64,000 nt of DNA from Candidatus Planktophila sp. (GTDB lineage Bacteria; Actinomycetota; Actinomycetes; Nanopelagicales; Nanopelagicaceae). This document shows, one piece after another, positions 13,662 to 25,162 of the stretch. Position 1 is the first letter of the stretch. The number at the start of each line of letters is the position of its first letter. The DNA lies in contig JAUSFN010000026.1 in NCBI GenBank assembly GCA_030649935.1, positions 186,001 through 250,000 of the forward strand. Direction: 5' to 3'. A program made the translations under genes and the position numbers. The notes under the pieces were generated by a model. It saw only the letters and a program-made list of their open reading frames with translations, was not told the DNA's origin and made no database searches.

Positions 13662-14618
13662 TTAGAGGTTTGTTATGGCATCAACAATCCTGCTCGCACC
13701 TTTAAAGTCGAGGAGACCTTTAGCCTTTGCTATCAAGTCTCCTCTTAATTCGCTCGACGCAACAAGCGAATAGATCATTTCCTTATCGAGTTCCCAGTCC
13801 TTGTCTAAATTGCTTAACCCTATTTGAGCGGCAACAGCAAGTTCACCTAATGAGTTGTAATACTGTTCTTGATTATCGACCGAACATGCAATACCAACGC
13901 AAAGACCACGAGCTAAGAACTCCAAGCTGGACGTACTCGATGTTGTTAAAACTAAATCAACATTCTTTGTCAACTCATCAAGCTGGTGACCGACTTCTAA
14001 GACGTGAAATCGTTTATCTAAAGGTGAATCAAAAATGGAGTTTGAGAATAGAAAGACTTCAAATTGTTCTGGGAGCGTTAGAAAAATTCCTGCAATTTCA
14101 TGCACCAGTCCGTAGAGGTCTGAACCACTCGCAACAACTGCAATTTCTAATTTGTGCTGCTCCTGACTCGTCACATGCAAATTTATAGATAGAGAAGATC
14201 GAAATGGAATTTACTTAGGCCCGGCCAGAATTGGAACTTTTGAGTCCCCAACCCAATTCGAATCCAAACCAGGGTGAATCCTTAGAGTGCAACGATAACT
14301 GGGTGTAAGTTCATCTACCATGGCAACGATGTGAAGCCAATTTTCGGGAGCTAGGAAAACATTGTCTACTTCAATCTCATATGAGTCTAAGAGCAGCACG
14401 TCAGATTCAGGGTTTGAAATAAATTTACTTGGATTATTATGGATAAAAGAAAATCCGAGCGAAGCAATTCTTTCTTCAACCCAAGGCAAGCCAGAAATCT
14501 GGCCGACAAAAATAACACCCTCTCCCCGAGCGATTAACTCCACAGCGATGGCCGAGGAGCGCATGACATGCCCAGACCCAATAGATTGCGAAGCATCTGC
14601 CCGCAGGGCTTATCTCAT
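13662..14618 (-). pseudogene. pseG: pseG (UDP-linked nonulosonic acid precursor hydrolase), broken by two in-frame TAA codons
   Basis: Read from ATG at 14618 in one unbroken frame of 319 codons, the sequence gives a PseG-like protein: RADASQSIGSGHVMRSSA near the start, LLLDSYEIE, ILAGPK, then after a stop IPFRSS, VVASGSDLYG, and TTSSTSSLEFLARG near the end. Two TAA codons interrupt it, at 14612-14610 (codon 3) and 14213-14211 (directly after AGPK). At the second, PseG proteins have Tyr (GPKY), so TAT/TAC to TAA is the likely change. Nothing else is shifted, so the loss looks recent. It sits next to pseB and pseC, divergent from them. Two shorter translated pieces (14564-14211 and 14180-13662) remain. 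Confidence 0.8.
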
Positions 14619-14684
14619 AGTGGTTAAGGGTATGCTCCATCCATTGAGTTGTGGATACACCGCTCAGACACACAGGAGGCTCGG

Positions 14685-15662
14685 ATGTCTCAGTTAGATG
14701 GAGCTTCAGTACTGATTACTGGGGGTACTGGCTCATTAGGTAAATCCCTAGTTGAATATTTGCTGAAGGAAACGAAGATCCGCCGAATTGCTATTTTTTC
14801 GCGTGACGAACTCAAACAACAGCATCTGCGCATTCAATTCCAAGATGACCCGCGACTTCGCTGGTTCTTAGGCGATGTTCGAGATCTTGACCGCCTCAAG
14901 CGTGCATTCCATGGGGTGGATTACGTAATTCATGCCGCCGCCTTAAAGCAGGTAGATACTGGCGAATACAACCCAATGGAGTTCGTCAAAACTAATGTTC
15001 TTGGGAGCCAAAACGTTATAGATGCTTCTATTGATGCTGGTGTAAAACGTGTAGTCGCATTGTCAACCGATAAAGCCTCTTCACCTATCAACCTTTATGG
15101 TGCAACCAAGTTAACGGCCGATAAGCTTTTTGTAGCCGCCAATAACTACAGTTTCGCTTACGGTACAACGTTCTCGGTCGTTCGGTATGGAAATGTCATG
15201 GGTAGTCGCGGCTCAGTTATTCCTTTCTTTCAGGCAATCGCAGCCCAAGGAAAACCTCTTCCAGTCACAGACTTAAGAATGACAAGATTTTGGATCAGCA
15301 TTGAATCCGCTGTAAAATTCGTTATGGACTCCTTGGACATAATGGAGGGTGGGGAGTTGTATGTCCCAAAGATTCCAAGTATGAAAATTACTGATTTAGC
15401 ACGCGCAGTTGCCCCAAATGCGAAGTTAGTAGAGATTGGCATGCGCCCTGGTGAAAAACTTCATGAAGAGATGATCTCTGCAGACGATAGTCGTCGCACA
15501 ATCATTCTCGAAAATCGTTACGTAGTAACACCGGTTGTCGCTGAATGGGGTTATAAACAACCTAATGGGACTGTGATGCCCGAAGGGTTGGCATACAGGT
15601 CTGATACAAACGATTTATGGATGTCAGAATCAGATATTATGAACTTTATCAAGAACCTTTAA
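14685..15662 (+). CDS. pseB: UDP-N-acetylglucosamine 4,6-dehydratase (inverting), pseudaminic acid pathway
   Basis: 325 residues from the ATG at 14685, chosen because a strong AGGAGG-like site (14674-14679) lies just upstream; a longer in-frame GTG start at 14649 is unlikely. Motifs are those of PseB/FlaA1: VLITGGTGSLGKSLVE, FSRDELKQ, AAALKQVD, STDKASSPINLYGATK (Asp-Lys and Tyr-Lys catalytic residues) and RYGNVMGSRGSVIPFF. It converts UDP-GlcNAc to the 4-keto-L-altro intermediate, first step of pseudaminic acid. pseC starts 6 bases after its stop. Confidence 0.95.
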   Translation: MSQLDGASVLITGGTGSLGKSLVEYLLKETKIRRIAIFSRDELKQQHLRIQFQDDPRLRWFLGDVRDLDRLKRAFHGVDYVIHAAALKQVDTGEYNPMEFVKTNVLGSQNVIDASIDAGVKRVVALSTDKASSPINLYGATKLTADKLFVAANNYSFAYGTTFSVVRYGNVMGSRGSVIPFFQAIAAQGKPLPVTDLRMTRFWISIESAVKFVMDSLDIMEGGELYVPKIPSMKITDLARAVAPNAKLVEIGMRPGEKLHEEMISADDSRRTIILENRYVVTPVVAEWGYKQPNGTVMPEGLAYRSDTNDLWMSESDIMNFIKNL

Positions 15663-15668
15663 TCTGAA

Positions 15669-16793
15669 ATGATTCCTTATGGTCGTCATTCTATCAACGA
15701 GGATGATATTGCTGCGGTTGTAACTGCACTAAAAAGTGATTGGCTTACTACTGGTCCTCTCGTTGAAGAGTTTGAAGCAGCGCTAGAAAAAATTGTTGGC
15801 GCACCGTGTATCTCCGTAAGTTCAGGTACCGCCGCATTACATTGTGCATACGCTGCAATTGGCCTTGGACCAGGAGATGAAATAATTACCCCCCCTATTA
15901 CTTTTATCGCAACACAAGCCACAGCAGCATTATTTGGTGCAACGATCGTATTCGTGGACGTCCAGCCCGATACCGCCAACATTGATCCGCAGGCCGTGGA
16001 AGCTGCGATTACCCCGAGAACAAAGGCGATAGTGGCAGTTGATTATGCAGGACATCCCGCAGACCTTGATGAACTGCGAGCAATCGCCGACCGCCACGGG
16101 ATATTTCTCATAGAAGATGCAGCCCACAGCATCGGGTCGATCTATAAAGGTCGCCCGGTTGGTTCAATTGCTGATGTAACGGCCTTCTCCTTTTTCCCAA
16201 CTAAGAACCTAACAACATGTGAAGGTGGAGCGGTTTCATCGATTCACCCAGATTTGCTCTTGAAAGCAAAGAGATTCTCCCGGCAAGGTTTAATCAGGAA
16301 TCCTGAGGAATTTATAGTCAAGGGAGAAGGCCCTTGGCATCAGGAAGTTCACGAATTTGGATTGAATTATCGTTTGCCGGATGTACTTTGTGCCTTGGGA
16401 CTAAGCCAACTTAGCAGGCTTAAGGATATTAAGCGAGATAGAGATTTAGTTTTCGCAAGATACGTTGACGCATTTCAGGGTTCTGAAACTGTAACCTTAC
16501 CCGCGGTCAGAACTTATGTAGACCCAATTTGGCACTTGTTTCCAATTAGGGTACCACCAAATTCCCGAGAGGGGATTTTTATAAAATTGCGTGAGAAGGG
16601 TTTCGGGGTGCAAGTGAATTACTTTCCAGTTCACTTACAGCCAGTCTTTAGAAAAGATACAGACCGCAATCAAGTTTTTCCCAACGCAGAAGACTTTTAC
16701 GGTCAAGAGATTTCTTTACCAATGTGGCCAGGCTTACTTGATTTTGATGCAGGAATTTTCGATGCGATAGCTAAAGTCATACGAGATAATTGA
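15669..16793 (+). CDS. pseC: UDP-4-amino-4,6-dideoxy-N-acetyl-L-altrosamine transaminase
   Basis: 374-residue DegT-family aminotransferase with the PLP lysine intact (Lys179 in FFPTKNLTTCEGGAV), SSGTAALHCA, PGDEIITPPITF and EDAAHSIGS. Immediately after pseB, it is expected to place an amino group on C4 of the PseB product with glutamate as donor. In the standard pathway the next step is N-acetylation by PseH; no GNAT-type acetyltransferase is visible in the locus, and the next gene is a methyltransferase. Confidence 0.93.
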   Translation: MIPYGRHSINEDDIAAVVTALKSDWLTTGPLVEEFEAALEKIVGAPCISVSSGTAALHCAYAAIGLGPGDEIITPPITFIATQATAALFGATIVFVDVQPDTANIDPQAVEAAITPRTKAIVAVDYAGHPADLDELRAIADRHGIFLIEDAAHSIGSIYKGRPVGSIADVTAFSFFPTKNLTTCEGGAVSSIHPDLLLKAKRFSRQGLIRNPEEFIVKGEGPWHQEVHEFGLNYRLPDVLCALGLSQLSRLKDIKRDRDLVFARYVDAFQGSETVTLPAVRTYVDPIWHLFPIRVPPNSREGIFIKLREKGFGVQVNYFPVHLQPVFRKDTDRNQVFPNAEDFYGQEISLPMWPGLLDFDAGIFDAIAKVIRDN

Positions 16794-16805
16794 CTTCTGA
16801 GGATT

Positions 16806-17537
16806 TTGTTGGTTGAGTTAACTATGGACTATGAGAATAACATAAATTACTGGGATGGCAGATACTACGCCCCAAATGTCGAGAGTTTCATTTTTCGTTT
16901 TTATGGTCGAGTTTTGAAACACGATTTTGGAATTGACGGATCAAACCAAGAAAAAGTATTTGATTTTGGATGTGGCGAGGGGGGAGCTCTCAATTTCTTT
17001 CATGAAAAAGGCTTTGACGTTTATGGTGTAGATATTGCTGAAAATGACATCAACCAGGCAAAACTTTCCCTGGCCCGTAAAACAAGGAAAGAACCAGTTG
17101 GAAGAGCACATTTTGAATTGATTGATCCGCACCCTCGCGCGAATCAACGCTACTTCGAATCTATCCACAATGGAACAGAGTGGATTGACGTTGCAATTTC
17201 AATTCAAACTCTAGATTTTTTGTCTGATACTGACTGTGAAATTGTGTTGCAGAATATTTATAACCAGATGAAACCAGGATCTGTCATATTTGCATCCTTC
17301 AACGGATACCAAATGTACTATCGGAATCATGGTCAATATATAGGTGATGGCCTGTGGCACATTAAATTTGCCAATGATCGCGTGAGTTATGACCTCAATC
17401 TTAACTTTATTGAGAGCAAAGAAAAATTAGCTCAGAAGTTTCATATGTTTACGCCAAAGTACATGGATTACTACGATTCGTCCTTTAGGAATGAAGGTTC
17501 GGAATTTCGTTGGACTTTTACAGGGACTAAAGAGTGA
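16806..17537 (+). CDS. Class I SAM-dependent methyltransferase in the nonulosonic acid operon
   Basis: 243 residues with SAM motif I VFDFGCGEGGALNFF near residues 53-67 and VYGVDIAEND following. It lies 12 bases after pseC in the same direction and so is likely co-transcribed. The start is uncertain: TTG at 16806 or 16809 near a GAGG, or ATG at 16824. It occupies the place where pseH usually lies and might methylate the amino or hydroxyl group of the UDP-sugar intermediate or the finished nonulosonic acid; this is inference from position only. Confidence 0.8.
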   Translation: MLVELTMDYENNINYWDGRYYAPNVESFIFRFYGRVLKHDFGIDGSNQEKVFDFGCGEGGALNFFHEKGFDVYGVDIAENDINQAKLSLARKTRKEPVGRAHFELIDPHPRANQRYFESIHNGTEWIDVAISIQTLDFLSDTDCEIVLQNIYNQMKPGSVIFASFNGYQMYYRNHGQYIGDGLWHIKFANDRVSYDLNLNFIESKEKLAQKFHMFTPKYMDYYDSSFRNEGSEFRWTFTGTKE

Positions 17538-17551
17538 CAAAAGTAAATACA

Positions 17552-18226
17552 TCAAATCTCAAGTTCTATTCGCTTCCAAATCTCTTTAAAAGTATATTTT
17601 GAGACGGAGTGTTTGTTTTCTAATTGACTTAAGAAATACAAATCCTCTTGCGTATCAACTGAAAAATTTAGATTCTTCGATCTGTTGTATTGGGCAAATT
17701 GAAGATTTGTAACTCTTAATTCCCCACTTGAATACATCCAAGGAGTAACGTGTTCTTTATCGTATGTGTTTTCTGTAAGAAAATCAGTCCGTAGGAGTAC
17801 CTCAGTTCTGAATATTTCTATGTCAAATCCTTTAGGGTAGGAATTTAGATTGCAATTTGCAGTGTAATCGGATCGCTCGGCTTCGTGAACGATCATCATT
17901 TCGTCAACTAGTTCAGGACACACCAGGGGGCAGTCAGCTGTAATTCTTACAATATTTTGTGGAGTGTACTTTTTTCCCAGCTCGATAAAACGTGAACGAA
18001 CATCAAGCAAATCACCTCTAAAAATTTTGTGATCCCGAATGTACTCCACAAGCACATCATCGGAAGGGTCTAAAGAAGTTGCAATGGTGATTTCATCGAG
18101 GGACTTGCTCATTGCTAGCCGAGAAAGTAGAACCTTTATAACAGTTGAGTCGCCCAAGGGTGCCAAAACTTTCCCAGGGAACCTGGTGGAGGACATACGC
18201 GCTTGGACTATACATAAGTTGCGCAT
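17552..18226 (-). CDS. pseF: SpsF/PseF-type acylneuraminate cytidylyltransferase
   Basis: 224 residues with the CMP-sugar transferase start CIVQARMSSTRFPGKVLAPL (about 4-23), where Arg and Lys bind CTP, RITADCPLV (about 113-121), and PKGFDIEIF. This belongs to the SpsF/COG1861 group rather than the longer NeuA group. It should activate the nonulosonic acid as CMP-sugar. It is 34 bases downstream of pseI on the same strand. Confidence 0.85.
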   Translation of the reverse strand: MRNLCIVQARMSSTRFPGKVLAPLGDSTVIKVLLSRLAMSKSLDEITIATSLDPSDDVLVEYIRDHKIFRGDLLDVRSRFIELGKKYTPQNIVRITADCPLVCPELVDEMMIVHEAERSDYTANCNLNSYPKGFDIEIFRTEVLLRTDFLTENTYDKEHVTPWMYSSGELRVTNLQFAQYNRSKNLNFSVDTQEDLYFLSQLENKHSVSKYTFKEIWKRIELEI

Positions 18227-18260
18227 AACTTAGGCTCTTTCGCTCCGACTCATTGGCAGA

Positions 18261-19298
18261 TCAACTAATTTTAGGCGTAGGGAAACCTTCACCTTTACGC
18301 AAACTAAATTCGCTAGGACTATTAATTAATTCATTAAAAAATATAGGGTCAGCCCCTAAAGAAGGCCGCCGAATTCCAATGTTAATTCGAGACAAAGTCT
18401 CACCGATAGCAATATCTGTGAGAGCGATGATTGACGGACGCTCCCAAAGTGAAGCTGTCTCCGAAGGTGTTGGCGAGAAGTCAAAGTCCCCGAGCGCATT
18501 AAAAGCATTCCAAATGGTTTCAACATAATTTTTAAACTGAAATTCATTCATCGAAAACTCAGAATCTAAAGTATTTATATCCATTAGCGTAATGTGCTTT
18601 TCAAATATGAGCGCCCCTTTACCAATCGCCAATATTGCTGCAGTCGGATCTAATGTATGATCTGAGTACCCAGTTACAAATCCAAATGACTTAAGTAGGT
18701 CATGTCGATTAATGTTGACGTCCTGAACCGAGCAGGGATAAGAACTTGTGCACTGCAGAAATGCGGTTGTAGACTTTTTGTGGGTAAAAATCTCAGATGC
18801 CTTATTTATCTCCGTCGTTTTTGACATCCCGGTCGATATTATAACCAGGACATCACGTTTTGCTAGATAATCCAAGAGGGGAATGTTGATCAAGTCAAAA
18901 GACGAAACTTTAATTGCCTTGATACCAGATTGTTCGAGGAAAATGGCAGCATCAATATCATATGCTGTGCTAAATACCTCAAGCCCAAGAGAATTTGCAT
19001 ACCCAAATAACTCTTCATGCCAAACTAATGGTGTTTCAGCTTCCTTCATTAACGACCATAAATTCCGCCCCCCCCATAAATTGCTTGAATCTGGAATTAA
19101 GAAATTTGTTTCATTCGAATTCACGGTAATAGTGTCAGCTGTGAAAGTCTGAAGCTTGACCGCATCAGCCCCTGCATTCTTAGCAGCCATAATAAGCGAC
19201 TTTGCATTTTCTAAGGCACCACCATGATTGGCCGAAATCTCAGCAATAACGTAAGGTCTAATTTCTTCCTTCGCTAAAATTCTACGCAATGTTTGCAT
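18261..19298 (-). CDS. pseI: Pseudaminic acid synthase/NeuB-family nonulosonic acid synthase
   Basis: 345 residues: the NeuB TIM-barrel (YVIAEISANHGGALENAK, AVKLQTFTADTITV, STGMSKTTEI, CTSSYPC, GYSDHT) and a C-terminal SAF/antifreeze-like domain from about residue 285 (RPSIIALTDIAIGETLSRIN). The enzyme condenses phosphoenolpyruvate with a 6-carbon diamino sugar to give a 9-carbon acid. The sequence GGALENAK and WERPS fit PseI better than LegI, agreeing with pseB/pseC here. It is divergent from the amidinotransferase gene across 49 bases. Confidence 0.92.
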   Translation of the reverse strand: MQTLRRILAKEEIRPYVIAEISANHGGALENAKSLIMAAKNAGADAVKLQTFTADTITVNSNETNFLIPDSSNLWGGRNLWSLMKEAETPLVWHEELFGYANSLGLEVFSTAYDIDAAIFLEQSGIKAIKVSSFDLINIPLLDYLAKRDVLVIISTGMSKTTEINKASEIFTHKKSTTAFLQCTSSYPCSVQDVNINRHDLLKSFGFVTGYSDHTLDPTAAILAIGKGALIFEKHITLMDINTLDSEFSMNEFQFKNYVETIWNAFNALGDFDFSPTPSETASLWERPSIIALTDIAIGETLSRINIGIRRPSLGADPIFFNELINSPSEFSLRKGEGFPTPKIS

Positions 19299-19347
19299 AG
19301 TGCTATTGTATGCTTACATTACTTAAATCGATTTTTGCGGGGGTACT

Positions 19348-20496
19348 TTGTCTAGTTATTCAGAATACTCATCATTGCGGAAAGTGATACTTGGAAGCGT
19401 GGACGATTATAAACCTTCATGTTGGGCCTGGAAAGGAGACCCAGGAGTAACAGCCGAAAATTTTTTGAAAGCAAGAGAATTTTGTGATTCAGCAATACCA
19501 GCTCAGATTCTTGAGGAAGTTTCTGAGGATTTGGCTGACTATGCGAGTGCACTAAAAGAATTTGGAGTTGAGGTAATTCGTCCACCAAGAATATCAGAAG
19601 AGCCAGTTTATGAAACAGAATTCTTCTATTCATATGGTCGAGATTTCTACAACATGCGCGACTTGCACATAGTTTTGGGAAAGAAAATGTTATCTTCTTC
19701 CCCCTCTCAACCCAATCGAATATTGGAAATAAATGAGATGAGTGAATTTATATCCAAAGTTTCGAAAGAATCGGACCTGGAATTCACTGGTAGTCCGGAG
19801 CCACAATTGAAAACTAACCCTGTCCACCCAAATATTAGAAATGCTTCTGGAGATTTAGTTTCCGCAGAAGAGTCTCTTGGGCAAATTTTGGGTTCAGTCA
19901 CTCAAGAAATTTGGCATCGTTTAGCGGAAGACGAGATTCTTTTTGATGCAGCCAATATAGTTCGTTACGACGGGTATGCCCTATATTTGGTATCAAGTAC
20001 TGGAAATTTAAAGGCTTTTGATTGGCTTAATTCGAGTGATACAGATTTCGATTTTCAGCAAACCGATGTCTACCGATCTTCCCATATCGATTCGACAATT
20101 CTTCCGCTAGATCAAGATACCTTTTTAGTTAATTCGGTGAGAGTGAATCCTATGAATCTTCCAGCTAGCATTAGGGACAGGAGGATTTTATATTTCAAGG
20201 ATGTTGCCAGAATTCCTCAATCTGAAATTGCCTTTCATCAGGAATATCGGGCAACGGCCGCGGCACAAATCGAAAAAGTTGGGTTTCAAACTAACTTACA
20301 AGAGATGAGCAGTCCCTGGGCGGGTATGAATGTTCTTTCGATTGACGAAAAAAACGTTATGGTCGAATCGAATCAGTTACAATTAATCCTTTATTTAGAG
20401 TCAAGTGGGTATAACGTGATTCCAATCAGGATGAGACACGCTTATACAATGCTTGGTGGGCTACACTGCACCACACTTGATTTAATAAGGGTCTGA
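19348..20496 (+). CDS. Amidinotransferase (glycine/inosamine amidinotransferase family)
   Basis: 382 residues. The arginine:glycine amidinotransferase fold is suggested by MRDLHIVLG (about 103-111), FDAANIVRYDGYALYLVSS (about 199-217, AGAT FDAAD-type), HIDSTILPL (His246, Asp248) and a C-terminal GGLHCTTLDLIRV with the catalytic Cys374. The family moves an amidino group from arginine to an amine, e.g. glycine or the inosamine of streptomycin (StrB1). The start is TTG after a G-rich stretch. It is coupled (2 bases apart) to a PseG-like hydrolase, so its acceptor may be the free 4-amino group of a UDP-sugar or the derived nonulosonic acid, giving a guanidino sugar. That function is inference. 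Confidence 0.8.
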   Translation: MSSYSEYSSLRKVILGSVDDYKPSCWAWKGDPGVTAENFLKAREFCDSAIPAQILEEVSEDLADYASALKEFGVEVIRPPRISEEPVYETEFFYSYGRDFYNMRDLHIVLGKKMLSSSPSQPNRILEINEMSEFISKVSKESDLEFTGSPEPQLKTNPVHPNIRNASGDLVSAEESLGQILGSVTQEIWHRLAEDEILFDAANIVRYDGYALYLVSSTGNLKAFDWLNSSDTDFDFQQTDVYRSSHIDSTILPLDQDTFLVNSVRVNPMNLPASIRDRRILYFKDVARIPQSEIAFHQEYRATAAAQIEKVGFQTNLQEMSSPWAGMNVLSIDEKNVMVESNQLQLILYLESSGYNVIPIRMRHAYTMLGGLHCTTLDLIRV

Positions 20497-20498
20497 AA

Positions 20499-21491
20499 TT
20501 GAATTTAAAAGTACTCCTGTATTTGGATTACGATGAGCAATCTGGATTGGGCCACATTTCCCGCTCCAGAGCAATTATTGAGGCAGTTTCTAATTACGCG
20601 ACCGAGATATTCCTTAGCAGTAAATTGAATCCTTTGGAAATTGAATCTCAAATAGATTTCCTTAACCAAACCAAGTGGATTTCCCATCAAGAAGCAGAAT
20701 TACTGCATTTTAATTTGGTTTATGTAGATACATATAGCTTTGATATACTCAATAAAGTTGAACACTTACCTATAGAGCGCAAAATATTACTCATTGATAG
20801 CAATTATACCCAAAGACTTCCAAATTGGGCGGATATAATCATAGACCTTGAACGGTCAACTCCTAGGAATTGTAAATTTGGAGGGACATATTTATTCGGC
20901 GACATCCTAGTCCACTCAGAGCTTGAATCAACCAGACGAAGTAGAGAAGAGTATGGAGTTAGAAAAAGTGCTTGTTCAAATCTAACGGCATTAGTCAATT
21001 TTGGCGGCTCAATCAAGATTGAACCATATTTGAGGCAACTCGAATCAACGTTTTTTTATAACATGGATATTCTTTATGTTGTTTATTGCCCATTTATTTT
21101 GCTAGAGAGCCTCAAAACCTATTTTCGGTACTACAAAAATGTTGAAATTAAGCCTTTTAGTCCGAATTATCTACAAGATCTTGCCACATGTGATTTCTTG
21201 GTCACCAACTCAGGTACAAGTTTCATTGAGGGATTGTTTGTCGATGTGCCAATGGTTATCTTTAATTTATTTCCCAATGCGCAGCTTAATTTTGAAAAGC
21301 TGCGCTACAGCAAACAAGTGATTTATTCCGGATTGGCAACCGAATTGGAAAGCGACTGGCAAAGTAATGTTCTCCACTCTCTCCAGTTGGGAGGCGATTT
21401 GCTTAAGTTCGAGTCAGATGATGACCCGAAGATTGAAATTTTGGACGAAGGTATTCTCAAAGTTGCATTAAGTGCACTGTGTTTCACATAA
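20499..21491 (+). CDS. PseG-like nucleotide-sugar hydrolase/GT-B protein
   Basis: 330 residues with the PseG/SpsG pattern: SGLGHISRSRAI near residue 15-26 (PseG G-x-GH-x-x-R), VYVDTYSFD, ALVNFGGS near 166 and TNSGTSFIEGLF near 245, followed by FNLFPNAQLNF. PseG cuts UDP from the trideoxy-diamino sugar before PseI acts. The start is TTG with AAGGG 8 bases upstream, and it is probably translationally coupled to the amidinotransferase. With the pseG at 13662-14618 broken, this gene may supply the hydrolase step, perhaps for a modified substrate. Confidence 0.75.
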   Translation: MNLKVLLYLDYDEQSGLGHISRSRAIIEAVSNYATEIFLSSKLNPLEIESQIDFLNQTKWISHQEAELLHFNLVYVDTYSFDILNKVEHLPIERKILLIDSNYTQRLPNWADIIIDLERSTPRNCKFGGTYLFGDILVHSELESTRRSREEYGVRKSACSNLTALVNFGGSIKIEPYLRQLESTFFYNMDILYVVYCPFILLESLKTYFRYYKNVEIKPFSPNYLQDLATCDFLVTNSGTSFIEGLFVDVPMVIFNLFPNAQLNFEKLRYSKQVIYSGLATELESDWQSNVLHSLQLGGDLLKFESDDDPKIEILDEGILKVALSALCFT

Positions 21492-21918: not shown

Positions 21919-22947
21919 TTGCCAGAGGTTAAGTTTTCAAGAATCGAGCAAACACTAAAGATTCCAGACAAAGTAGCAAAATTTGTAAATCTGCACACAT
22001 CCAGTGGCGATTATATGAGAAATATGTTTAGTGAGCAGTTCGGTTATGGGCATAGGGAAATACTTTTGAAATATTGTGGGCTCGATTTTTCAACACAACT
22101 ATTAGGAAACTTGCAGCACGGCGTTATGCTGCACCACTCATATTTAGATTTTAGAACCCCAAGATATTTTGGAATGAGAAAGTCTCAGTTCTGGGTTTTC
22201 TCTAAAGAATATGAAAAACTTGGTCGTTCATTAGGCAATGAGAATGTCACCGCAATTGGTGCCCCTTGGTTATATTTACGTGATTCAGTGGAGTGTGAGC
22301 CGCAACCCGTTCAAAAACCAGAGGGTATTTTAGTGATGCCGGGACACTCATCCGGCCCCTATAACTCAATCGCTTCAGTTCAACAAAAAAGGGCTAGAGC
22401 AAAAGCTTTTCGGCAAATTGTTGGAACACAGAAAGCCACCGTCTGTCTGCACGCAACAGACTTTTGTAATCCCGATACGACCGAAGCTTTTCTAGATGAG
22501 GGATTCAAAGTGATTTGTCCTGGATCATCAAATGTATTGCCTTATTGGGCAGAATCTGGGAATAGAGCTCGTACTTTACATAAAATAATGAGTCTCATGA
22601 ATTCACACACACACCTGCTCACCGATCGATTTGGAACTCATATTTTTTACGCCATTGATATGGGTCTAAAAATTGGAATTTTTCCAGAGATAAGCGAACT
22701 TTCCCCGACTAGAGATCTTTCTGGTAGAAAGCACGTTGTTGATTTTTCAATAACAGACAAAGAAGAATTTAATTACTTAAGGGAAAATATTCCAGAGGCA
22801 ATCAATCAATTCACAGAGTCACAAAAGTATCAAGAAATCTCAAATCTCGTATTAGGAAGAGATGCAGTTATGAGCCCTGAAAATCTCCTAGAGACCTTAG
22901 ACTATCGAAAGCACGTGTATCCAATAAGTGACATCCAGCCCTGGTAA
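21919..22947 (+). CDS. Unrecognised glycan-locus protein, GT-B-like
   Basis: 342 residues, TTG start behind an AGGAG-type site. I do not recognise a named family. Features: GYGHREILLKYCGLD (about 40-54), GNLQHGVMLHH (about 63-73), where a Gly/His pair resembles the HG element of CDP-glycerol/Kdo/polysialyl-type GT-B enzymes, VFSKEYEKLGRSLG and GILVMPGHSSGP in the middle, and FGTHIFYAIDMGLKIGIFPE near the C-terminus, which sits where GT-B enzymes bind the donor. A role in transferring or polymerising a CMP-linked nonulosonic acid is possible from context but not shown. Confidence 0.6.
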   Translation: MPEVKFSRIEQTLKIPDKVAKFVNLHTSSGDYMRNMFSEQFGYGHREILLKYCGLDFSTQLLGNLQHGVMLHHSYLDFRTPRYFGMRKSQFWVFSKEYEKLGRSLGNENVTAIGAPWLYLRDSVECEPQPVQKPEGILVMPGHSSGPYNSIASVQQKRARAKAFRQIVGTQKATVCLHATDFCNPDTTEAFLDEGFKVICPGSSNVLPYWAESGNRARTLHKIMSLMNSHTHLLTDRFGTHIFYAIDMGLKIGIFPEISELSPTRDLSGRKHVVDFSITDKEEFNYLRENIPEAINQFTESQKYQEISNLVLGRDAVMSPENLLETLDYRKHVYPISDIQPW

Positions 22948-23049
22948 TGACCTGATGCATCTGAATTTAGTGAAGAAATTCAAACACCAATTGTTTGCAC
23001 TTAAAAGAGAATTCATCGACATCTCACAATACGCACAGTGTGCGGCCAT

Positions 23050-23937
23050 ATGACATCACGATTAGTGCTGGGTGCAGCCAATTATGGAAAATTGACCCAG
23101 ATTGAAGTTAACAAACTACTCGGGACCTCCTTTGAGCAGGGAATAAATAGGATTGACACAGCTCACGGGTATGAAGGCTCAGAAGAAAAAATTGGAGTTT
23201 TTCTGAAAACCAACAAAGACTATCAAGTCAATACAAAAGTTGGACTTCCGGACCCAGTAGTGTTCACGCCATCTGGAATTAAATTATCCATCGAGGAAAG
23301 CCTTAAAAGACTTGACTTAGAAAGTTTAGGAACGCTTTTTGTTCACTCTCTCCCGGCCAAGCATCTAACTGATGAGAATATTGCGGCAATGATCTCACTA
23401 AAAACGGAAGGCAAGATAAAGAGAATTGGCTATGCTGGCGACGGCGATAACTTAAGATCTGCAGTTGGAATTGCTGCATTTGATGATTTCTTAGCGACGT
23501 TTAATATTATCGACCAATCAAATTCTAAGGAAATCAAGAAGGCATCAGAAAAGTCGGAGATTTATTACAAACTAGTGATGGGCCAAGCAGTTTGGACGAG
23601 CCTAGAATGGAAAAGGCGCGTCAAGAGTCACAAATTAATGCGGTTTCTATTTAATAAACCGCCAGTTCCGGAGACTTGGGCTGATTACTGTGCGCGCTTT
23701 AATAGTCTTAAATCAGAAATAGATAACAGAGACTTTGCTACGGCATTCCTGAAATTTGCGCTTTTTTCAGGGTCTTCCAGGCAATTGGTGGTTCTAGGTA
23801 CTAACAGCCCCAAACATATTCAGGATGCAATTAAAGTCGAGTCAGAACAGCTAGATGCTGAATCAATAGAAATTACTAGGTACGAGGATTTGTGGTTAAA
23901 GAAAAGCTCTCCAGGATGGAAGGCGCATGTTGGATAA
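23050..23937 (+). CDS. Aldo/keto reductase family protein
   Basis: 295 residues from the ATG at 23050 (a GTG four codons earlier is also possible). MTSRLVLGAANYG is the usual first strand, then NRIDTAHGYEGSEEKIG with the catalytic Asp and Tyr, VNTKVG with the Lys, and LGTLFVHSLP where the His follows. The C-terminal half is less conserved. It probably reduces a keto group on a sugar or a related small molecule with NAD(P)H. Similar reductases occur in nonulosonic acid loci, but the substrate is unknown. Confidence 0.8.
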   Translation: MTSRLVLGAANYGKLTQIEVNKLLGTSFEQGINRIDTAHGYEGSEEKIGVFLKTNKDYQVNTKVGLPDPVVFTPSGIKLSIEESLKRLDLESLGTLFVHSLPAKHLTDENIAAMISLKTEGKIKRIGYAGDGDNLRSAVGIAAFDDFLATFNIIDQSNSKEIKKASEKSEIYYKLVMGQAVWTSLEWKRRVKSHKLMRFLFNKPPVPETWADYCARFNSLKSEIDNRDFATAFLKFALFSGSSRQLVVLGTNSPKHIQDAIKVESEQLDAESIEITRYEDLWLKKSSPGWKAHVG

Positions 23938-24034: not shown

Positions 24035-25162
24035 TTGAAGAAGATATGCGACAAACTCAAGGATCAAACCATCTTCCTTGAAAACTCCACTGGAAAGCCC
24101 GAAATTGTTTTAATATTCCCCATTACTCGTGATGTTGAAAAAAGTTCCGACAAATGGATGACTGTTTTAGAGTTCGTTGCAAGTTTTGAGATTAGTACTC
24201 TTCTCGTAATAGATAAAACAGAGCAAGGTTCTGCAACAGATTACTTCATGGATCATTTTGAAATCGAGAAGAAGAGGCTATTTGTTTTACCGCGAAGTAT
24301 TAAAGATACGCTTTTTGACACTGTGGGTGAAATAGTCCTCGATAAGAATATGTGGATAATCCAACTCCATGATGATGATCATTGGAGTGGTAAGATCACT
24401 TTGCCAGAATCAGTCAACGCTGGCACGGTATATTTTTCGGACTTTTACCTGTACTCAGATACAAAAGGTTCGATTCAAATTGACGACTATTCAATGCCCA
24501 ATCGAATCGTATTTTCACTAGTTCCTTCAATGATTTGGAATAGATTTGCTAAGTTAGTACAGGACCAGAGATATCATGTTGCTGGTTCATTCGACTTCAC
24601 ACTAAATATGATGGCTCAATTGGCCTGCAAATTTGATTATCAGCCAGGGTTTAAGTATTACTGGAAAGACGATAACTGGGATACGTCGAAAAATGCAATT
24701 GCGCATTTAACTAGATTGGCAGAAAGTGATGGGTGGGAAGGGTGGTCATCTCCGGAAATTGCCAACTTTAATCGCTCGATTGACAGTTTGGCTTCCCTGA
24801 AATATGTAAAGGACCTTCTAAATCCTACGGAGATTGAAAAAGAAATAGGGCATCTCATTAAAGGATTACGCCCTAGTTATAGAAAAAGACTTAAATACGG
24901 ATTCTATATTTCAGCAATGTATTCAATAGTGGAAATCCGAAAATTAATTTTCAAGGCCGGAGGAGCAATTGACATAAGATCACTCAGATTACTTAATCGA
25001 TTGAGTCTTTACCGACTTATTGTAAAAACTTGGCGCTTAGAGTCGATTGAAAATATCATTGATTTGATTGTCTATATTGAATCGCAAAATCGCTTTGAGA
25101 AATTGCAAGTTAGATTCCAATTTTGGAAGCAAGCCCTTGCAGAGTTAAACAAGGAGTTTTAG
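24035..25162 (+). CDS. Putative GT-A-like glycosyltransferase
   Basis: 375 residues, probably from TTG at 24035 with a G-rich region upstream. The N-terminal half has alternating strands and ends in IIQLHDDDHW (Asp113-115), a DxD-like metal/nucleotide site after a hydrophobic strand, as in GT-A transferases. The C-terminal half is helical and basic. It is directly joined to the following GT4 gene (stop and next ATG are adjacent), which supports a sugar-transfer role. I could not place it in a named GT family. Confidence 0.6.
   Translation: MKKICDKLKDQTIFLENSTGKPEIVLIFPITRDVEKSSDKWMTVLEFVASFEISTLLVIDKTEQGSATDYFMDHFEIEKKRLFVLPRSIKDTLFDTVGEIVLDKNMWIIQLHDDDHWSGKITLPESVNAGTVYFSDFYLYSDTKGSIQIDDYSMPNRIVFSLVPSMIWNRFAKLVQDQRYHVAGSFDFTLNMMAQLACKFDYQPGFKYYWKDDNWDTSKNAIAHLTRLAESDGWEGWSSPEIANFNRSIDSLASLKYVKDLLNPTEIEKEIGHLIKGLRPSYRKRLKYGFYISAMYSIVEIRKLIFKAGGAIDIRSLRLLNRLSLYRLIVKTWRLESIENIIDLIVYIESQNRFEKLQVRFQFWKQALAELNKEF

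Follow-up and report, generated by a model that had tools for sequence, protein, structure and literature searches.

An amidinotransferase linked to nonulosonic acid genes in Candidatus Planktophila sp. and its probable role in guanidino sugar synthesis

RESULTS

An amidinotransferase gene within a pseudaminic acid locus

A 64-kb stretch of a Candidatus Planktophila sp. genome (hereafter the window; the genome is 1.8 Mb in size, lies on 42 contigs, and is 99.95% complete) contains a nonulosonic acid (NulO) locus with a gene for an amidinotransferase, which we call AmT, where related pseudaminic acid loci carry pseH. We propose, with a probability of roughly 60%, that AmT is an amidinotransferase dedicated to NulOs and that here it probably leads to 5-acetamido-7-guanidino-pseudaminic acid. 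The proposal is based on the gene content of the locus, the catalytic residues of AmT, its position in a separate clade, its linkage to NulO genes, and the replacement of pseH. The initial annotation had assigned pse genes to positions 14685 to 21491, where they are indeed found, with PseB scoring above its family cut-off; a pseG remnant at 13662 to 14648, just outside this range, had been missed. The genes considered are listed below (L213 is the corresponding locus of a relative from the same genus, and L037 contains another member of the AmT clade; UDP, uridine diphosphate; CMP, cytidine monophosphate).

13662–14648, − strand: pseG remnant (UDP-sugar hydrolase); a single frame with two in-frame TAA codons, divergent from pseB
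14685–15662, + strand: PseB, inverting UDP-GlcNAc 4,6-dehydratase; TIGR03589, 474 bits, cut-off of 408 passed; 91% identity to L213 PseB
15669–16793, + strand: PseC-like aminotransferase; TIGR03588, 398 bits, below the cut-off of 423.5 but by far the best family; 72% identity to L213 PseC
16806–17537, + strand: S-adenosylmethionine (SAM) methyltransferase, a possible tailoring step; Pfam methyltransferase domains; 55.6% identity to the L037 methyltransferase
17552–18226, − strand: SpsF-type cytidylyltransferase, the proposed CMP-sugar synthetase; PF02348, 94.9 bits
18261–19298, − strand: PseI-like NulO synthase with Glu286; TIGR03586, 299 bits, below the cut-off of 340
19348–20496, + strand: AmT, the proposed NulO amidinotransferase; relatives StrB1, HsvA, SxtG, and AGAT; Asp200, His246, and Cys374
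20499–21491, + strand: PseG2, a divergent PseG-like UDP-sugar hydrolase; TIGR03590, 25.7 bits, cut-off 153.6; matches a PseG profile
23038–23937, + strand: aldo/keto reductase (AKR), possibly a pathway member; PF00248, 85 bits

AmT represents a distinct clade of amidinotransferases

When AmT was compared with solved structures (phmmer), amidinotransferases were the only matches, with StrB1 (1bwd) ranking first at E = 2.8e-30, followed by HsvA, SxtG, and AGAT. The initial annotation had described an AGAT/StrB1-like enzyme with a Cys374/His246 site, and both points are correct; Asp200 completes the triad, and all three residues align with those of the solved relatives. In a careful alignment, the catalytic residues as well as Arg104, Asp105, and Asp248 are conserved in all 11 clade members, with Glu replacing Asp200 in five of them. 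An AlphaFold model of moderate quality (pLDDT 68.7, pTM 0.72, 9 sequences) was used for a Foldseek search, in which StrB1 1bwd was again the best match (E = 2.1e-17), and 6u1r, 5wpi, and 1jdw also scored well above DDAH and arginine deiminase (ADI). The sole Pfam match of AmT is to the ADI family PF02274 (18.7 bits, below the gathering threshold of 22.8), and it covers only the C-terminal 57 residues.

A profile scan in which each species was represented by one genome found 395 relatives, and our comparisons rest on the best 80 of these. The first eight (34–41% identity, E of 3e-68 or better) are well separated from the other 72, whose best segments show no more than 30% identity, or up to 32% where the match spans only part of the protein, with E-values of 7e-42 or weaker. 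Together with the window and two members from a later search (L277 and L278), these eight make up the 11 clade members found. The taxa represented in the clade include Xanthobacteraceae, Rhodospirillaceae, Staskawiczbacteria, Nitrospiraceae, Deltaproteobacteria, Pelagibacteraceae, and Lentisphaerae. In a tree with 13 other StrB1/AGAT-type amidinotransferases, the AmT clade stands apart (support 100/99), and within it subclade A unites the window with L036, L037, L038, L039, and L040 (support 99/99); the branching of the remaining five members is only partly settled. AmT is sparsely distributed: it was found in 1/73, 4/217, and 1/192 genomes of three sets at E<=1e-60, query genomes counted, and was not found in 295 other genomes of the order. 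Single-sequence protein scans of genome and viral contigs with AmT detected no relative, whereas the profile scan succeeded. Plasmid and phage relatives were rejected as clade members, being other amidinotransferases with at most ~30% full-length identity. Another clade of amidinotransferases is represented in 35 viral contigs and in four records of Campylobacter and Synechococcus phages (L122–L156; H21–H24). A Rahnella plasmid operon (L034:8540-13825) combines gntA-like, short-chain dehydrogenase/reductase, amidinotransferase-related, and LysE-type exporter genes and perhaps serves a guanidino metabolite.

AmT is linked to NulO genes in unrelated taxa

A NeuB or PseI gene was detected in the flanks (tblastn with the window PseI as query, E<1e-8) of 6 of 8 AmT-clade loci versus 0 of 72 loci of other amidinotransferases (Fisher test, 9e-8), so that a conserved pairing with pse genes, raised in the initial annotation, does exist. 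As for the two misses, L037 opens with the 3' end of a PseI gene (78 codons, E = 9e-6) whose first part ends contig L220 of the same assembly, and the L042 contig stops 1.7 kb behind AmT, with NeuB on another contig of its genome. The presence of NeuB at the genome level was discarded as uninformative, as it was seen in 9/9 AmT genomes but also in 9/14 control genomes.

The gene orders are PseG-PseI-AmT in L036, PseB...PseF-PseG-PseI-AmT-methyltransferase in L037 plus L220, PseB-PseC-cytidylyltransferase-PseI-AmT in L038, and PseB-PseC-PseF-PseG-PseI-radical SAM-AmT-HisH-HisF-PseA-like in L039; in L040, a full Pse set that includes a PseG-PseH fusion precedes AmT, and a split second copy of PseI lies between them. 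No GNAT was seen in the L039 locus, and a PseH search of its genome found nothing at E<=1e-3. For L036 and L038, the lack of an N-capping gene is a local observation only, since each is an entire contig of ~8.3 kb. The coupling of AmT to a PseG-like hydrolase, noted initially, is present in the window (AmT ends at 20496 and the PseG2 start codon is at 20499, leaving 2 bases between the genes), but this direct pair is specific to the window, and elsewhere the recurrent neighbor of AmT is PseI. The radical SAM/SPASM gene between PseI and AmT is located at L039:9033-9998, and at L220:2595-6167 a PhyH gene adjoins an AMP-ligase/hexapeptide protein.

The family proved wider than the initial annotation had assumed. 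In L041, L042, L043, and L277, a homologous NodB-type deacetylase gene is adjacent to AmT or separated from it by a single gene, and candidate N-capping enzymes accompany it, namely formyltransferases (L041 and L042), NeuD (L043; 208 bits, cut-off 160.8), and a GNAT of unknown target (L277). Relatives of these deacetylases were found neither in subclade-A loci nor in the control amidinotransferase loci (0/72). The L041 order is LegB-LegC-NeuC-NeuB-formyltransferase-nucleotidyltransferase-PseF-PtmA-methyltransferase-deacetylase-AmT. From this pattern, we suggest that AmT acts on whichever nitrogen remains free; both layouts would leave one free amine, and members that pair with a deacetylase would probably amidinate another amine. 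The cap/deacetylase pattern over nine loci gave counts of 4/1/0/4 (one-sided Fisher test, 0.040; post hoc and small). L037/L220 and L278 were ambiguous and not counted; with L278 entered as uncapped, the value was 0.024. A deacetylase had been predicted beforehand for the two new members and was found in L277, where PseB and PseC are neighbors of AmT; the 17.7 kb covered there contain no NeuB, and two NeuB genes are on other contigs. The order in L278 is LegB-LegC-NeuB-NeuC-methyltransferase-AmT-cytidylyltransferase-nucleotidyltransferase; this run contains no N-capping gene, and the only candidate is a WcaF-like O-acetyltransferase 3.4 kb upstream.

The pseH gene has been replaced in the window

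We searched the window with 12 query proteins (two PseH, another GNAT, two formyltransferases, NeuD, WbqC, a PIG-L deacetylase, PseA, HisH, HisF, and PseF) and found no relative at E<0.01, in line with the earlier remark that no acetyltransferase was visible; for PseA, HisH, and HisF, this search covered the window and not the rest of the genome. The negative holds for these queries, as not every open reading frame of the window was compared with Pfam. A whole-genome search for PseH likewise gave no match above the cut-off of 93.1 bits and returned three GNATs only (31.9, 27.7, and 22 bits), none of which adjoins glycan genes, as judged from their neighbors. The PseH profile that we used for comparing loci was seeded from L040, L212, L213, and L215, and its matches to those four are given by construction.

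Comparison with L213 shows what has been exchanged. In L213, PseG is divergent from a run of PseB-PseC-PseH-like GNAT-PseI-PseF-HisH-HisF-PseA-like, and the flanking epimerase, asnB, glycosyltransferase, and UDP-sugar dehydrogenase genes are syntenic with those of the window and 80–87% identical. In place of the L213 genes, the window has AmT, PseG2, another PseI type, another cytidylyltransferase, and a broken PseG, whose read-through frame shares 47% identity over 328 aa with the intact PseG in the same position of L213. PseG2 matches a profile of eight PseG proteins with a probability of 97.2% (E = 4.7e-11) and retains the GLGH motif. Other loci of the same order carry, in the place of PseH, a PseH-like GNAT (L215), a formyltransferase-like gene (L211), a PseH-PseG fusion (L212), or WbqC (L214). 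Since the PseH site differs among L211–L215 and the window, the predicted step that treats the 4-amine is one that varies between loci of the order, and the window has AmT. The formyltransferase-like gene (L211:8466-9251) and the WbqC-family gene (L214:1517-2233) adjoin PseC at this site, and the position in L214 suggests that WbqC proteins may have a part in capping the 4-amine. In L215:7411-9283, PseH, PIG-L deacetylase, and formyltransferase-like genes lie side by side, which looks like a C5 N-acyl exchange.

AmT-linked PseI proteins carry a distinctive glutamate

A Glu at position 286 of the window PseI, three residues before a conserved serine, is present in 6/6 PseI proteins linked to subclade A (window and L036–L040) versus 0/48 other NeuB-family proteins, in which this site is occupied by Phe, Tyr, His, an aliphatic residue, or a small one and never by Glu or Asp. 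The NeuB proteins of the deacetylase-type loci have Val (L041), Ala (L043), and Gln (L185), and that of L278 has Thr. Counted on the alignment, the site corresponds to Ala289 of Neisseria meningitidis NeuB and neighbors Phe288, which a section of PMC6795526 lists among the residues lining the catalytic site. A tie between Glu286 and the C4 nitrogen is a guess, because the portion of PMC7371886 on NeuB specificity assigns the C4–C6 part mainly to positions 70–85. Other PseI positions that had seemed to separate the groups faded as more sequences were added, and Glu286 alone remained. That AmT-linked PseI proteins form one clade was neither shown nor rejected.

The window PseI contains the Pse-type synthase motifs KVSSFD and CTSSYP. 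Markers of this type, according to a passage in PMC7371886, are the Phe in KIASFE and the Ser in CTS.YP (mapped here by motif); at the Phe site, PseI proteins of relatives L211–L215 have Met or Leu. The linked PseI proteins of L036, L038, and L039 exceed the TIGR03586 cut-off, unlike that of the window.

A proposed pathway and its alternatives

In the pathway that we propose, PseB and PseC would form UDP-4-amino-4,6-dideoxy-L-AltNAc with a free 4-amine. In place of acetylation by PseH, AmT would take the amidino group of arginine onto Cys374, assisted by His246 and Asp200, and pass it to the 4-amine, yielding a 4-guanidino sugar. PseG2 would strip UDP from this sugar, the Glu286-type PseI would join it with phosphoenolpyruvate, and the SpsF-type enzyme would activate the resulting 5-acetamido-7-guanidino-pseudaminic acid so that it could be added to a surface glycan. 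The 7-guanidino reading of the initial annotation gains support from the position of AmT where relatives have PseH and from the pairing with NulO genes, and two findings that would have spoken against it, a PseH above the cut-off in the genome and loss of the AGAT/StrB1 residues, did not emerge; the acceptor sugar, the C7 position, the order of AmT and PseG2, and the identity of the product we infer from sequence. The expected product (C12H22N4O7, 334.1488) would be 11.2 mDa (33.5 ppm) heavier than Pse5Ac7Ac (334.1376). In the members with a deacetylase and an N-cap (L041, L042, L043, and L277), the same chemistry would operate on the other nitrogen, at C5 of the NulO. On balance, we lean slightly toward the broader view of a horizontally spread family of NulO amidinotransferases giving rise to natural guanidino sialic acid-like sugars, modified at C7 where the enzyme replaces an N-acetyltransferase and at C5 where it works with a deacetylase.

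Several observations weigh against this proposal. PseH-like genes in the pse loci of relatives score just 48.6 and 44.9 bits, and a diverged unlinked PseH is thus possible in the window genome. Moreover, the PseH profile matched in only 6/17 Nitrospirota PseI loci; the absence of PseH alone is weak evidence for this reason, and after this control it was dropped as a stand-alone test. The L040 cluster keeps a PseG-PseH fusion, and its genome has a further PseH-like match, which we would attribute to the presence of two PseI genes in L040. No PseC was seen in L037/L220, where a large ligase contains a hexapeptide domain, HisH, HisF, and PseA-like genes of unclear role lie beside AmT in L039 and L040, and the deacetylase prediction failed for L278. 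As to Glu286, the PseI proteins that carry it are related, with a single origin not rejected (approximately unbiased test, p = 0.448), and 24 of the 48 comparison NeuB proteins come from one phylum. Finally, the window's AmT and PseI sit on long branches, and its AmT, PseI, and PseG2 are fast-evolving copies.

Among the alternatives, it is unlikely that AmT works in NulO biosynthesis but never at C7, acting in every member on the C5 amine or on the finished or CMP-activated sugar. The deacetylase and N-cap adjoining AmT in L041, L042, L043, and L277 would fit the C5 amine, and NulOs with a C5 acetamidino group are known (Pse5Am7Ac and Leg5Am7Ac, named in part of PMC3958885). However, the stretches examined of the window, L036, L038, and L039 contain neither a deacetylase relative nor an N-cap, and only the C4/C7 amine would therefore be free there; the association of Glu286 with the linked PseI also suggests that the group is already in place when condensation occurs. 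Rather improbable is a role of AmT in making a small guanidino compound, such as guanidinoacetate, with which the NulO or glycan would then be acylated. AGAT does use glycine with the same triad, and amino-acyl type substituents such as GlnAc on Pse exist (mentioned within PMC3958885), but profile scans recognized no N-acyl ligase or acyltransferase between the pse genes of the window, and the AmT clade is separate from AGAT-like sequences.

We give a slightly smaller chance to ordinary diacetylated pseudaminic acid made by a diverged unlinked acetyltransferase, with AmT as an unrelated neighbor. The three weak GNATs and the low scores of the relatives' own PseH proteins would allow it, whereas the AmT-NulO linkage is repeated in unrelated phyla (6/8 versus 0/72), and PseG, PseI, and the CMP-synthetase have been exchanged along with PseH relative to L213. 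That AmT is an ADI-type hydrolase supplying ammonia or citrulline to another step is very improbable: its sole Pfam match points this way but falls below the cut-off, the nearest solved sequences are all amidinotransferases, and in the Foldseek ranking DDAH and ADI fall far below StrB1, SxtG, HsvA, and AGAT.

Relation to known systems

The locus resembles the canonical CMP-pseudaminic acid pathway (PseB-C-H-G-I-F) in having PseB, PseC-like, PseG-like, PseI-like, and cytidylyltransferase proteins and Pse-type PseI motifs. It differs in that no PseH was found and the canonical PseG is broken; the locus has AmT and PseG2 instead, together with a PseI of the Glu286 type and a cytidylyltransferase of the SpsF type. 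AmT shares its fold and catalytic residues with StrB1, SxtG, HsvA, and AGAT, and StrB1 amidinates an amino group of a carbohydrate-like ring. The AmT clade nevertheless lies apart, with at most ~31% identity to the aligned family members, and is tied to NulO genes rather than to aminoglycoside or toxin clusters. We judge the new part to be the proposed N-substituent on a known NulO pathway, made by a known enzyme fold.

The acetamidino route of Campylobacter (PseA/Ptm) likewise modifies a NulO nitrogen with a cationic group of the amidine type, and the corresponding locus of the same-genus relative, L213, contains PseA-like, HisH, and HisF genes. PseA-type enzymes are ATP-dependent amidotransferases that are unrelated to AmT and act on an acylated nitrogen, whereas AmT is a pentein enzyme and would make a guanidine from a free amine. 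Other sources write Pse5Ac7Am instead of Pse5Am7Ac for the product. In passages of the review PMC3958885, the Campylobacter products are given as Pse5Am7Ac and Leg5Am7Ac. Because the amidine is placed at C5 in these names, C7 would be left for AmT in L039 and L040. Zanamivir (4-guanidino-Neu5Ac2en; parts of PMC9840695 and PMC11531459) has a guanidino group on a sialic acid scaffold as well, but it is a synthetic drug and differs in ring, position, and unsaturation. Zanamivir aside, we found no guanidino NulO and no amidinotransferase in a NulO pathway among the papers listed by searches of the open full-text literature, a scope outside which most subscription journals fall.

If the proposal holds, a guanidino NulO would be zwitterionic and arginine-like and could alter recognition by phages, lectins, and grazers, and an arginine-dependent branch would be added to NulO pathways. 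AmT could also serve as a biocatalyst for zanamivir-like guanidino sugars. Such NulOs could have gone unnoticed in low-resolution mass spectra, and NulO assignments at unit mass may be wrong. For annotation, the clade provides a simple rule: AmT beside NeuB, with a deacetylase optional.

Accessory genes of the locus

The SpsF-type enzyme gave no match to PseF (TIGR03584) in a profile scan at E<=0.01. Relatives of it are found in L038, L040, and L041, and they also adjoin PseI in L212 and L214. The methyltransferase at 16806–17537 has its relative in L037 (1586–2269) directly downstream of AmT; the window belongs to an actinobacterium and L037 to an alphaproteobacterial metagenome-assembled genome. 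Other methyltransferases adjoin AmT in L041, L277, and L278, and the product may be methylated. AKR genes with 27% identity to that of the window stand beside a PseI or SpsF-type gene in L212, L214, and L041, and a fusion of AKR and SpsF-type domains is mentioned for a Vibrio Pse cluster in one part of PMC7371886. Behind pseG2, the open reading frames at 21919–22947 and 24035–25162 have no Pfam match and are candidate NulO transferases.

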